This document shows positions 14,802 to 21,205 of a stretch of 64,000 nucleotides of DNA, piece by piece. The position numbers were made by a program, and so were the translations under genes. The stretch is from positions 992,001-1,056,000 of the forward strand of contig NZ_CP100404.1 in assembly GCF_024218775.1 (NCBI RefSeq), in the 5' to 3' direction. The notes beneath the pieces are model-generated. The model made no database searches. It saw only the letters and a list, made by a program, of their open reading frames with translations, and was not told the DNA's origin. Source of the stretch: Haloarcula marina (GTDB lineage: Archaea; Halobacteriota; Halobacteria; Halobacteriales; Haloarculaceae). The stretch's first letter is position 1, and every line of letters begins with the position of its first letter.

Positions 14802-15203
14802 GTGCACCAACTCACCACCGTCGACGAGGTTCACGAGTCGGGGTCGTATCTGTTCACCGCGACGGGTCCCTACGGTGACGCCGAGGAAGTCGTCGTCGTC
14901 CCCTGCGAGGACGGCGTCGAAGCGTGGGTAAACCGCTGTACCCACGAGGACCAGCGCTTCGACACGGGCCGCGGCGTCCCGATGCGCGAGGGGCAACTCA
15001 TCTGTCCGCGTCACGGGTCGCTGTTCGACGCGTGCGAGGGCGACTGCGACAACGGGGAGGCCGCTGGGACGACGCTTCCGGGCGTCGACATCGCCGAGCG
15101 CCACGGGACGGTGTTCCTCATCGACGACGACTACGCGTTCGACCACGAGGGCGGCGTCGACGACGACGACGGGCCGAGTTCCACGTCGCACCTCCAGTTG
15201 TAG
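14802..15203 (+). CDS. Rieske [2Fe-2S] ferredoxin-type protein
   Basis: A 133-residue soluble Rieske protein. The cluster ligands are C-x-H (VNRCTHEDQRF, about residues 44-54) and C-x-x-H (LICPRHGSLFDACEG, about 65-79). This ferredoxin-type domain passes electrons to an oxygenase or reductase; no membrane anchor is seen. It ends in an acidic tail (GGVDDDDGP). The GTG at 14802 (VHQLTTVDEV) is preferred because CTTAC lies 29 nt upstream; a GTG at 14760 would add 14 residues. MOSC, YqcI and isochorismatase-like genes follow on the same strand. Confidence 0.9.
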   Translation: MHQLTTVDEVHESGSYLFTATGPYGDAEEVVVVPCEDGVEAWVNRCTHEDQRFDTGRGVPMREGQLICPRHGSLFDACEGDCDNGEAAGTTLPGVDIAERHGTVFLIDDDYAFDHEGGVDDDDGPSSTSHLQL

Positions 15204-15245
15204 TCCGGACGAAACACTGAATCTCCCGACGGTCCAGCGGACGGT

Positions 15246-15710
15246 ATGCACGGCGAAGTCACGGCCATCCACCTCGCGCGCGATTCGGGCGGCACGGTCG
15301 AACCCGCCGAGAGCGCCGACGCCGTCGCCGGACGGGGCCTCCGCGGCGACCGGTACTTCCGCGACCAGGGGACCTTCGACGACCGCTCGGGGAGCGACCT
15401 CACGCTCATCGAGGCGGAAGCGCTTTCGGCCGTCGAAGACGACTACGGCGTCTCCATCGGGGCGGGAGAACACCGGCGCAACGTCACCACCGAGGGCGTG
15501 GCGCTGAACCACCTCGTCGGCAAGCGATTCGCCGTCGGCGGCGCCGTCTGCGTCGGCGAGGAACTGTGCGAACCCTGCGCGTACCTCGAAGACTTGCTGG
15601 ACGAAGCGGGCGTCCGCGAAGCGCTGGTCCACCGCGGCGGCCTGCGGGCGCGCATCGTCGAGAGCGGGACTATCGCGACAGGTGACGCCGTCGAGACGGC
15701 GTCGGTGTAG
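15246..15710 (+). CDS. MOSC-domain protein
   Basis: A 154-residue stand-alone MOSC domain, the fold found at the C-terminus of molybdenum-cofactor sulfurases and in mARC/YiiM/YcbX-type enzymes that reduce N-hydroxylated compounds. Seen: GRGLRGDRYFRDQGTF (about 29-44), LTLIEAEALSAV, RRNVTTEGVALNHLVG (about 77-92), and the conserved Cys region CVGEELCEPC (about 102-111) with several candidate ligand cysteines. It may bind molybdenum cofactor or handle sulfur. The gene starts 42 nt after the Rieske gene and is a plausible electron-transfer partner. Confidence 0.9.
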   Translation: MHGEVTAIHLARDSGGTVEPAESADAVAGRGLRGDRYFRDQGTFDDRSGSDLTLIEAEALSAVEDDYGVSIGAGEHRRNVTTEGVALNHLVGKRFAVGGAVCVGEELCEPCAYLEDLLDEAGVREALVHRGGLRARIVESGTIATGDAVETASV

Positions 15711-15731
15711 CCTCACGGCGGTCGCTCGAAG

Positions 15732-15737
15732 CATATT
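15732..15737 (+). promoter_or_regulatory. TATA-like element before the YqcI/YcgG gene
   Basis: CATATT in GCATATTTGC lies about 26-31 nt before the ATG at 15763, in an otherwise GC-rich gap of 52 nt. It supports that start and suggests the YqcI-isochorismatase pair has its own promoter. Confidence 0.5.
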
Positions 15738-15762
15738 TGCTCGCTCGGACGAACTAGCGGTA

Positions 15763-16590
15763 ATGACCGCCACCCGAGTCGGCACGCTACTCACACAGGC
15801 GGAACTGGCGTCGTGGGCCGAGAGCGGTGACGCGCCGGAGTGGGTCGCGGCCCACTGGCACACGTTCCGCGAGGGGTTGCTCGGCGAGCGTAACGGGTCG
15901 CCGTTCCCCTGCTTCTTCGGCGCGGAATCCGTCGCGCAGGGCGACCCGCTGTACACCGTCGTCCCGTCGCTGACCCGAACGGACGCGCTGCTGTCCTTTC
16001 GGGATACGCTGGCCACGTATCTCGACCGGTACGAGGACCACAGCGACCGCGCGTCGCTCGTGACGTTCTTCCGGCCGCCCGACCGCCATCTCTCGGAGGC
16101 TGAGTACCACGACACGCTGTGGCACATCTTGCAGTTCCTCCATCTCCACGACCCCGAACCGTGGCCCGAGGACATCCCGACGGACCCGGACGACCCCTAC
16201 TGGGAGTTCTCCTTCGCGGGCGTCCCGATGTTCCCGACCTGCCGCGCCCCGTTCTACGACGACCGCAAGAGTCGGTACTGCCCCATCGGACTGGAGATAA
16301 CGTTCCAACCGCGCGCCCTGTTCGAGAGCCTCGGCGTGACCGGCGACACCGAGGCCGGACAGCACGCCCGCGAGGTGATTCAGGACCGACTGGTCGACTA
16401 CGACGGCGTCTGCCCGCACGCCGACCTCGGGGACTGGGGCGTCGAGGGCGACCGGGAGTGGCCCCAGTACATGCTCGCCGCCGACGAATCGCAGGCCCCC
16501 GACGAGTGCCCGATGACCGTCTCCCGCGAGCACCCGAAGTTCGACCCGCGGTTCGACCCCGGCGTGGGTGCGCTCGCGGCGGAGAAGTGA
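15763..16590 (+). CDS. YqcI/YcgG-family protein (possible heme N-oxygenase)
   Basis: A 275-residue protein. Family hallmarks: [10 protein letters not shown] (about 47-56), [20 protein letters not shown] (about 145-164), [16 protein letters not shown] (about 173-188), and the C-terminal [13 protein letters not shown]. From established knowledge, this family includes GntA and DcsA, heme-dependent N-hydroxylases acting on arginine-type substrates; most members, including archaeal ones, are uncharacterised. ATG at 15763 fits the TATA element and sits right before the conserved region. It is followed after 2 nt by the isochorismatase-like gene, so the two form a tight pair. Confidence 0.82.
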
Positions 16591-16592
16591 CG

Positions 16593-17159
16593 ATGGCGCT
16601 CCCGGACGACGCCGTCCTCCTCCTGGTGGACTTTCAGCGGGGATTCGAGGCGGACGGGTGGGGCGAGCGCAACAACCCCGACGCCGAAGCGACGGCGCTG
16701 GAACTGCTGGCCGCGTGGCGCGAGGCCGACCGCCCTGTCGTCCACGTCCGTCACGACTCGACGGAACCCGACTCGCCGCTCCGCGGCGACGGACCGGGGT
16801 TCGCGTTCAAAGACGGCTTCGACTCCCACGAGAGCGAACCCGAGTTCGTCAAGCGCGTCAACGGCGCGTTCGTGGGGACCGAACTGGAGGGATGGCTCCG
16901 CGACCGGGGCTACACGACGCTCGTGGTCTGCGGCCTCACGACGGACCACTGCGTCTCGACGACGACGCGGATGGCGGAGAATCGCGGCTTCGACGTGGTC
17001 GTCGTCGCCGACGCCACCGCGACGTTCGACCGCACGCTCGACGGCGAGCGGTTCGACCCCGAGACGGTCCACCGGACGGCGCTGGCGCATTTACAGGGGG
17101 AGTTCGCGGCGATTCGGACGGCCGGGGAACTGCGTGAGGCAATCGGCGACGAATCTTAG
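16593..17159 (+). CDS. Isochorismatase-family cysteine hydrolase
   Basis: A 188-residue hydrolase of the isochorismatase/nicotinamidase superfamily. The catalytic triad is visible: Asp in [10 protein letters not shown] (about 9-18), Lys in FVKRVNGAF (about 87-95) and Cys in [14 protein letters not shown] (about 117-130); the typical cis-peptide region precedes the Cys. The substrate is an amide or vinyl ether, not deducible. It starts 2 nt after the YqcI/YcgG gene, so it is almost surely translated from the same mRNA and may process its product. Its stop codon interlocks with that of topA on the other strand (17156-17159). Confidence 0.9.
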
Positions 17160-19798: not shown

Positions 19799-21205
19799 TC
19801 AGTCGGCCCGACGACGCCGCCCCAATCGGTCGCTCGTGCGGACGAACCGATACCCCGCGACGCCGAGTTCCGCCAGGAGCCATCCGGCGACGAGTAGCCC
19901 CGCAAGCATCGCGTAGAGGAGGTCCCATCCACTCATCCACACCGGGCGGAGCCACGGCGCGTAGTGGCCCCAGAGCGTTCCGAGTTCGCTACCGACCGCG
20001 GACAGGGGGGTGCCAGCCACCGTGGCCTCGATGAACGACCCGACATCGACGCGGTCGTTGCCGCCCGCGGTGAGGCCCGCGCTCCCGGTAATTTCGTACG
20101 TGCCGGTCGCGTTCTGCTCGCGGATGGTCGGGCCGTTGGACCCGTCACCGTGGGCGACCCGTTCGGCGTCGTAGGGTCCCCACGTCGCGTAGTACTCCCA
20201 GACGATTTCACCGGTCGGCGTCACCTCGATGACCCGGTGGTTCAGCGTGTCCGTGATGAGCGTGTTGCCGTTCGGGAGGCGGTCGGCGTCCCGGGGCCAG
20301 TTCAGCGAGTTGGACCCGACCTCCCACGTCTTCGTCCACGTGCCGTTGGTGCGGGCATACTCGACGATGCGGTTGTTGTGGCTGTCGGCGACGAGTATCG
20401 TCGGCGTGCCGTCCTCGCCGACGAGGTAGTCGGGGTTGTGTTGCTCGTTGAGGACGCTGTGGTTGTCGTCCTCGCCGAGTCGCATATCGATGGCCTTCGT
20501 CGACCGGTTGATGAGCAACACTTGGTCGAAGTTCCGCGGCGAGAGGAGGAACTGGTCGTCGCCGACGGCGTCCACGTCGTTGCTGTGGCTCCAGTCGGCG
20601 TTCATCCCGCCGTCTAAGTCGGTGTCGACGTGGTTCCGATAGCGCCAGCGCCACGTGACCGAATCGGTCGTGAGGTTGTAGACCACGATTTCGTCGTTGG
20701 ACACCTGCTGGCTCTCGTTCCACGCCCGCATGTGCGAGATGACCAGCGCGGTGTCGTTCAGCATATCGATGTCGTGGGTGTCCTCGTAGGGGAGCAACCG
20801 CTCCCACTCGCGGGTCCGCGTCTCGGGGTCGAGTTCGTAGACGAGGGTGTTACCCGAGCGCGGCGAGACGACGAGGAAGTTCCCGTTCGGCAGGGGGTCG
20901 ACGTCGAAGAACCACGCGTTCGCCCCCTCTCTGCTCTCGTAGGTCCAGTTCAACTCGCCGCGTTCGTCCAGCGCCACGAGTCGCGCGGGCTTCTTGGGGT
21001 TCGTATTCCCGTCGAAGGTGTAGCCCTGCGTACTCACGACCGTCGTCCCGTTCGCGGCGTCGGTGACGGTCCCGCGCTGAAGCGACTCGCCGTCGCTCGG
21101 TTCGTACGTCAGCGCGCCGACGACTGACGGCGTGAGAAGCGCGAGAACGAGCAGTAACACCGCACCGCGGGCGAGCGTTCGCCGAGAGGGACGACCGGAA
21201 AGCAC
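19799..21205 (-). CDS. Membrane-anchored arylsulfotransferase-like beta-propeller
   Basis: A 468-residue protein: basic N-terminus and signal-anchor (ARGAVLLLVLALLTPSVVGA, about 11-30), an extracellular beta-propeller, and a C-terminal transmembrane helix (LLYAMLAGLLVAGWLLAELG, about 429-448) followed by a basic tail. The propeller contains repeats of the ASST/arylsulfotransferase type (WFFDVDPLPNGNFLVVS, WSHSNDVDAVGDDQFLLSPR, RDADRLPNGNTLITDTLNHR) with conserved His residues. In bacteria such proteins transfer sulfate between phenols; in haloarchaea the activity is unproven. Potential N-glycosylation sites (NGT, NDT, NLT, NRS, NHS, NAT) fit an exported location. Confidence 0.82.
   Translation of the reverse strand: MLSGRPSRRTLARGAVLLLVLALLTPSVVGALTYEPSDGESLQRGTVTDAANGTTVVSTQGYTFDGNTNPKKPARLVALDERGELNWTYESREGANAWFFDVDPLPNGNFLVVSPRSGNTLVYELDPETRTREWERLLPYEDTHDIDMLNDTALVISHMRAWNESQQVSNDEIVVYNLTTDSVTWRWRYRNHVDTDLDGGMNADWSHSNDVDAVGDDQFLLSPRNFDQVLLINRSTKAIDMRLGEDDNHSVLNEQHNPDYLVGEDGTPTILVADSHNNRIVEYARTNGTWTKTWEVGSNSLNWPRDADRLPNGNTLITDTLNHRVIEVTPTGEIVWEYYATWGPYDAERVAHGDGSNGPTIREQNATGTYEITGSAGLTAGGNDRVDVGSFIEATVAGTPLSAVGSELGTLWGHYAPWLRPVWMSGWDLLYAMLAGLLVAGWLLAELGVAGYRFVRTSDRLGRRRRAD

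Follow-up and report, generated by a model that had tools for sequence, protein, structure and literature searches.

Organization of the locus

The window, meaning the whole stretch of 64,000 nucleotides analysed, covers positions 992001-1056000 of the 3.74 Mb genome of Haloarcula marina (NZ_CP100404.1). It carries four consecutive genes on one strand, as described in the first-pass annotation, and profile matches place all four on the plus strand, with the following features:

before the Rieske gene, minus strand: GGGP synthase (PF01884)
14802-15203, plus strand: Rieske [2Fe-2S] protein, GTG start (PF00355, 34.6 bits)
15246-15710, plus strand: stand-alone MOSC domain protein, 154 aa (PF03473, 41.6 bits)
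15732-15738, plus strand: putative TATA box CATATTT, 25-31 nt 5' of the YqcI start, read from the sequence
15763-16590, plus strand: YqcI/YcgG protein, 275 aa (PF08892, 238.2 bits)
16593-17159, plus strand: isochorismatase-type cysteine hydrolase, 188 aa (PF00857, 111.6 bits)
after the hydrolase gene, minus strand: DNA topoisomerase (topA), whose end overlaps with that of the hydrolase gene

The Rieske and MOSC genes are 42 bp apart. The stop codon of the YqcI gene ends at 16590 and the hydrolase ATG begins at 16593, which confirms the 2 nt spacing noted earlier for the last two genes. Beyond topA there is an arylsulfotransferase-family (PF05935) protein at 19799-21205 of the window, on the minus strand.

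Conservation of the gene neighbourhood

The neighbourhood was surveyed around the best 80 of 123 confirmed relatives of YqcI, all 80 of which are haloarchaeal. In 75 of these 80 loci the hydrolase gene is directly downstream of the YqcI gene, the five without an adjoining hydrolase being two Halomarina, one Halostagnicola, one Natronosalvus, and one Natrarchaeobius. A MOSC gene is directly upstream in 33 of the 80, with one further locus (L016) where the upstream stretch is too short to judge, and MOSC, YqcI, and hydrolase are found together in 31. There is no Rieske gene near YqcI in the fetched stretches of any of the 80 loci. Apart from the hydrolase, the MOSC, and frames antisense to YqcI and the hydrolase, no gene cluster is present in more than 23 of the 80 loci; with flanks that change to this extent, general synteny does not explain the YqcI-hydrolase pair.

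Gene order is thus conserved beyond chance for YqcI and the hydrolase, partly so for the MOSC, and not for the Rieske gene. The conserved core is the YqcI-hydrolase pair, with the MOSC as an optional member. The first-pass annotation had proposed one pathway for all four genes, to be doubted if they were rarely adjacent in relatives; this is the case for the quartet, it is not the case for the pair, and the trio is intermediate. The hydrolase, in particular, stands as a near-constant partner of YqcI, both in these loci and across the 77 genomes described below.

The other neighbours differ by lineage and are not supported as members of the unit. In the Natrialbaceae they include DUF2071 proteins (L013, L032, L075) and a short-chain dehydrogenase (L019), in Haloferax a GNAT acetyltransferase (L068), in Halegenticoccus a sodium:solute symporter (L067), and in Halomarina (L002, L008) a polysaccharide deacetylase-like protein and a formyltransferase domain. 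In Halomarina oriensis (L008:5022-5891), which has no adjacent hydrolase, the formyltransferase-domain protein precedes YqcI. In Saliphagus infecundisoli (L031:9845-12313), topA lies about 2.4 kb past a YqcI-hydrolase pair that has neither Rieske nor MOSC gene; this is the only one of the 80 loci with topA in the fetched stretch.

Co-occurrence across genomes

Presence and absence were compared in 77 genomes of the window's family, the window genome included; this survey and the 80-locus set share members. YqcI is matched in 41 of the 77 (E ≤1e-10), the hydrolase in 39 (E ≤1e-25), the MOSC, with paralogues counted, in 39 (E ≤1e-8), and the Rieske protein in 67 (E ≤1e-5). Both YqcI and the hydrolase are present in 38 genomes, YqcI only in 3, the hydrolase only in 1, and neither in 35 (Fisher p 2.9e-17). 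The same four classes number 22, 19, 2, and 34 for YqcI and the close MOSC group (E ≤1e-38; p 4e-6) and 28, 13, 18, and 18 for YqcI and the close Rieske group (E ≤1e-30; Fisher p 0.11), where the MOSC and Rieske E-value limits were fixed after the matches were known. Because related genomes are not independent, labels were also permuted within genera, which gave p 1e-4 for the hydrolase against YqcI, p 0.065 for the MOSC (in a set holding one extra genome, 013, with a partial match), and p 0.60 for the Rieske protein. The MOSC has no match in the five same-genus genomes.

YqcI adjoins the hydrolase in 31, and the MOSC in 9, of the 41 YqcI-bearing genomes, a total that includes two distant matches (038 and 051, 41% identity) and one that is short and contains a stop (063). 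Among the ten exceptions to adjacency with the hydrolase, genome 010 has a weaker hydrolase match (46%) beside YqcI. Six genomes (008, 011, 015, 028, 030, 067) have a long YqcI match and a hydrolase match elsewhere in the genome; these displaced copies are 60-63% identical to the window hydrolase and may be a paralogue.

Transcription of the pair

A 4-nt overlap of the YqcI and hydrolase genes is present in 32 of the 72 loci that could be measured (the 75 with a downstream hydrolase less 3), and in 58 of the 72 there is either an overlap or a gap of at most 10 nt. From this spacing they are predicted to be a translationally coupled pair.

In 78 aligned regions upstream of YqcI, window included, the A+T fraction is 0.86 at -28 and 0.85 at -26, against 0.26-0.53 between -70 and -42. 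The TATA box of leaderless haloarchaeal transcripts sits at about that distance upstream of the start. The peak is seen both in the 31 loci with an upstream MOSC (0.81 at -28, 0.84 at -26) and in the remaining 47 rows (0.89 and 0.85), into which the window was sorted even though it has a MOSC. With the peak there both with and without a MOSC upstream, it is probable that the pair has a promoter of its own, the MOSC being an optional neighbour.

The Rieske gene and the origin of the arrangement

Thirty Rieske loci (L112-L141), the window among them, were fetched with about 1.5 kb on either side. There is no YqcI within this distance in 29 of the 30, and the thirtieth is the window itself. Of the other 29, topA is present in 12 and GGGP synthase in 9. 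In all five same-genus genomes GGGP synthase is on the other strand 675-683 bp before the Rieske gene, a distance that is 122 bp in the window, and in the three of these with topA in reach the gap between the Rieske gene and topA is 201-216 bp. In the window this gap is occupied by the MOSC-YqcI-isochorismatase cassette, an arrangement present in no relative examined; the same-genus genomes carry YqcI and the hydrolase at places other than the Rieske locus. The Rieske gene is therefore judged to be a resident of an older GGGP-synthase/Rieske/topA neighbourhood and outside the unit, and seems to be beside the cassette by accident. A short frame with two CPxC motifs, identified by eye, follows the Rieske gene in all five same-genus genomes (L113-L117), and is not found directly after it in the window, where the cassette stands.

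The earlier proposal of a Rieske electron carrier in a four-gene pathway is not borne out, and on the neighbourhood surveys and co-occurrence tests together the Rieske protein is rejected as a pathway member. A sequence search of the PDB found no relative of this protein.

In Haloarcula salina (L023), the YqcI of which groups with those of the same-genus genomes, there is a MOSC upstream, so the three-gene arrangement is not alien to Haloarcula. Among genomes that share the window's genus, the YqcI of L092 is identical to that of Haloarcula vallismortis (L007), and the YqcI of L085 to that of H. argentinensis (L003). Five of the six named Haloarcula loci have a gene of 625 or 646 aa upstream of YqcI, the 625-aa version appearing PIN-like by eye only; it too is not supported as a member of the unit. 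The window genome has one relative of this gene, 87% identical, and sequence likeness to G065 ends at the end of the gene. The only YqcI of the genome is that of the window. In a tree of 127 YqcI rows, from which short frames and repeat loci were excluded, it falls outside the supported group (100/99) of the five same-genus genomes and six named Haloarcula loci, and its nearest kin within the 127 rows were not resolved. The simplest account is that the cassette arrived from another haloarchaeon.

Residues and predicted substrate of YqcI

The PF08892 match spans profile positions 7-210 of 211. Among proteins of known structure, the nearest are chains of AglA, from the argolaphos pathway (PDB 9ub3, 9uba, 9ubb), a member of the same family (phmmer E 8e-39). 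The five best PDB fold matches to the YqcI model are likewise all AglA, with a TM of about 0.7 and 34% identity in the structural alignment, from a model of only modest confidence (mean pLDDT 64.5).

In AglA the heme is held by Cys44 and its carboxylates by R166, K196, and R200, while the residues that contact the substrate include F152, Q177, R179, F182, K225, and Q228 (PMC12866846). Cys50 of the window YqcI aligns with Cys44 and is kept in 80/80 of the relatives (the best 80 of 123), as are the equivalents of F152, R166, Q177, R179, F182, and Q228. In the same 80, without exception, K196 is replaced by Arg and K225 by Glu. At the position of R200, 75 of the relatives have Gln and the other 5 His, a point against the N-hydroxylase reading. 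The AglA row in this alignment is the K196R chain, with the wild-type Lys196 taken from the AglA paper and the K225E chain.

The first-pass annotation had placed YqcI with the heme N-hydroxylases and looked to absent heme binding and missing conserved residues as the sign against this. The heme-ligand cysteine and the substrate residues are in fact present, and by these residues YqcI may be assigned to that group. GntA, of the guanitoxin pathway, gives only a partial profile match, over residues 46-161, and identity with GntA is ruled out by a score of 47.9 bits against the NCBIfam model NF041366, which has a cut-off of 145.

The substrate of AglA itself is AMPn-Arg, free arginine being hardly used, and no phosphonate cluster was seen at the window locus. 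The K196R, K225E, and double mutants of AglA hydroxylate free L-arginine at N-delta (PMC12866846). The window pocket natively has both of these changes, which gives a direct and testable prediction of substrate. Among 18 family members carried on plasmids, of which three are closely related to the window YqcI, 17 have Glu at position 225 and 11 have Arg at 196, so the Glu may mean only that a protein is unlike AglA, and not that it uses arginine; lysine at 225 looks to be a speciality of AglA.

ChmN, a family member from the chalkophomycin pathway, acts on free L-arginine, has Cys47 as its heme ligand, and works with ferredoxin. The oxidation of free L-arginine was driven by ferredoxin from spinach together with the matching reductase (PMC11177257), so that a dedicated electron carrier need not be encoded nearby. 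ChmN works beside an SznF-like enzyme, whereas the partner of the window YqcI is a cysteine hydrolase. The AglA-type residues, taken with the precedent of ChmN on free arginine, lead to the prediction that YqcI N-hydroxylates the guanidine group of a free amino acid. The predicted N-hydroxylation step is well supported by the residues, and YqcI very likely binds heme; the chances that its substrate is free arginine or a near relative appear about even.

The hydrolase and the MOSC protein

Isochorismatase-like cysteine hydrolases have an Asp-Lys-Cys triad, and the corresponding D13, K87, and C120 are kept in at least 97% of 75 aligned hydrolase rows, the window included. By these residues and the PF00857 match the protein may be classed with this family. 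It matches five NCBIfam models, among them the equivalogs for biuret amidohydrolase, nicotinamidase/pyrazinamidase, RutB, and YcaC, in each case with a score under the cut-off. The closest PDB entry, 3mcw, has no cysteine aligned with C120 and is therefore no guide to the substrate, the class of which the sequence does not define. It is likely that the hydrolase acts in the same pathway as YqcI. In the D-cycloserine pathway, DcsA is followed by the hydrolase DcsB, which is arginase-like and thus of a fold unrelated to the isochorismatase-like fold here. DcsA is a YqcI/YcgG protein reported to make N-omega-hydroxy-L-arginine, an activity that another paper describes as not confirmed in vitro. 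A sampylated isochorismatase-family hydrolase is mentioned for Haloferax volcanii (PMC4443979), a species that, as a control genome, gave a PF08892 match.

In the MOSC protein, C102, C108, and C111 are present in 24/24 rows chosen for clean frames, and in 30, 31, and 30 of 32 rows in a cruder alignment. It has no PDB relative by sequence search. Its model (mean pLDDT 84.2) matches YuaD (E 1e-9), YiiM (E ~1e-6), and human mARC1 (E 3e-4), so that the likeness to enzymes reducing N-hydroxylated compounds, suggested in the earlier description, is recovered at the level of the predicted fold. YiiM and mARC reduce such compounds (PMC5818509), and human mARC converts N-omega-hydroxy-L-arginine to arginine (PMC10637980). 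The window protein shares the MOSC fold with YiiM, YuaD, and mARC, but is shorter and is without an electron-transfer domain; YiiM and mARC have an invariant reactive cysteine (C119 in gsYiiM), to which C102, C108, and C111 are the candidate counterparts. A reverting or protective role for the MOSC is plausible, and it may tentatively be seen as an enzyme that reverts the hydroxylation.

A proposed pathway and its alternatives

The gene pairing, the close spacing, the residue conservation, and the predicted folds are established here, and their best explanation overall is a haloarchaeal module for guanidine N-oxygenation, to which a probability of roughly 0.55 is given. YqcI, as a thiolate-heme enzyme, would use O2 to hydroxylate a free amino acid on one of its guanidine nitrogens, with a general ferredoxin as the source of electrons. 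The most likely substrate is L-arginine, with N-delta favoured and N-omega possible. By means of C120, the coupled cysteine hydrolase would then break a C-N bond of the hydroxylated compound, which could give either N-hydroxyornithine and urea or ornithine and hydroxyurea. In some species only, the MOSC would act as a molybdenum-dependent reductase returning surplus N-OH to N-H, and the Rieske gene would be an unrelated neighbour. Against this stand the 5 of the 80 loci with no hydrolase nearby and the six family genomes in which it is elsewhere, as well as the weakening of the MOSC association to p 0.065 within genera and the lack of a MOSC match in the five same-genus genomes.

The pair might instead be catabolic, YqcI oxidising a guanidino or amidino compound from outside and the hydrolase freeing its nitrogen for growth. 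The sub-threshold matches of the hydrolase to biuret amidohydrolase and other models for amide- and urea-cleaving enzymes, with similar PDB matches, point this way, as do neighbours that, where identified, are unlike a biosynthetic cluster; given that a transporter cluster is conserved in no more than 23/80 loci and that the conserved YqcI pocket is like that of AglA, this is considered unlikely. That the hydrolase is a housekeeping amidase only sharing a promoter with YqcI is improbable, since adjacency persists in 75/80 loci despite the changing flanks and joint presence holds within genera (p 1e-4), although the displaced match, perhaps a paralogue, in six family genomes with a long YqcI would fit such a role. 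Least probable is a single system of all four genes in which the Rieske protein passes electrons to YqcI or the MOSC. The genes are adjacent on one strand here, with only 42 bp between Rieske and MOSC, and Rieske proteins have been noted in predicted peptide-synthesis operons akin to those that hold YqcI/YcgG (PMC2922099). Yet the Rieske gene is near YqcI in 0/80 loci and does not track it (p 0.11 and p 0.60), and all five same-genus genomes are among the 29/30 Rieske loci without YqcI. It is a weaker objection that AglA worked with a PDR/VanB reductase and not with another 2Fe-2S reductase (PMC12866846), as neither is a stand-alone Rieske protein. As a conserved system, the quartet is largely refuted.

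Returning to the N-oxygenation module, one specific form of it would be an archaeal route of arginine oxidation, in which a thiolate-heme enzyme makes N-hydroxyarginine, an isochorismatase-fold enzyme rather than an arginase splits it to N-hydroxyornithine or hydroxyurea, and the MOSC serves as a brake. This is unlikely in full; if true, it would have no precedent outside the natural-product clusters of bacteria, as far as the literature found goes, and the pair would offer a candidate for a reaction new to isochorismatase-fold enzymes.

The wider YqcI family

Only six members of the family have been functionally characterised, all of them bacterial and in natural-product pathways (PMC12866846). 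The open-licence literature on the family, on archaeal hydroxyarginine, and on hydroxyguanidine hydrolysis, judged by titles and abstract openings, offered the natural-product papers cited and no archaeal work on this pair, and no archaeal member of this enzyme family is described in the papers found. The haloarchaeal version is conserved across many genera, nearly always keeps its hydrolase partner, and was not seen within a biosynthetic cluster, and so bears on the role of the family outside natural-product clusters.

YqcI matches occur in 49 plasmid records, 18 of which supplied the plasmid-borne members. In nine annotated bacterial plasmids YqcI has among its neighbours LysE exporters, permeases for amino acids, cupins, or a DUF1989 protein, with no cysteine hydrolase beside it in any of the nine; a tenth bacterial plasmid bears no annotation. 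Eight are haloarchaeal, two of which have the hydrolase, and these two are the only plasmids of the 18 that the window hydrolase matches.

A second group of haloarchaeal plasmid YqcI proteins (L165, L166, L171, L172) is 40-44% identical to that of the window and adjoins genes for a sulfotransferase and an adenylyl-sulfate kinase (opposite strand in L171), suggesting that O-sulfation comes after N-hydroxylation. In Halorussus limi (L170:4310-5753) and Deinococcus ficus (L178:4899-6381), YqcI adjoins a urea carboxylase-associated protein and a DUF1989 protein, both of families linked to guanidine metabolism. A LysE-type amino acid exporter follows YqcI in four bacterial plasmids, directly in L167, L168, and L176 and after two intervening genes in L174.
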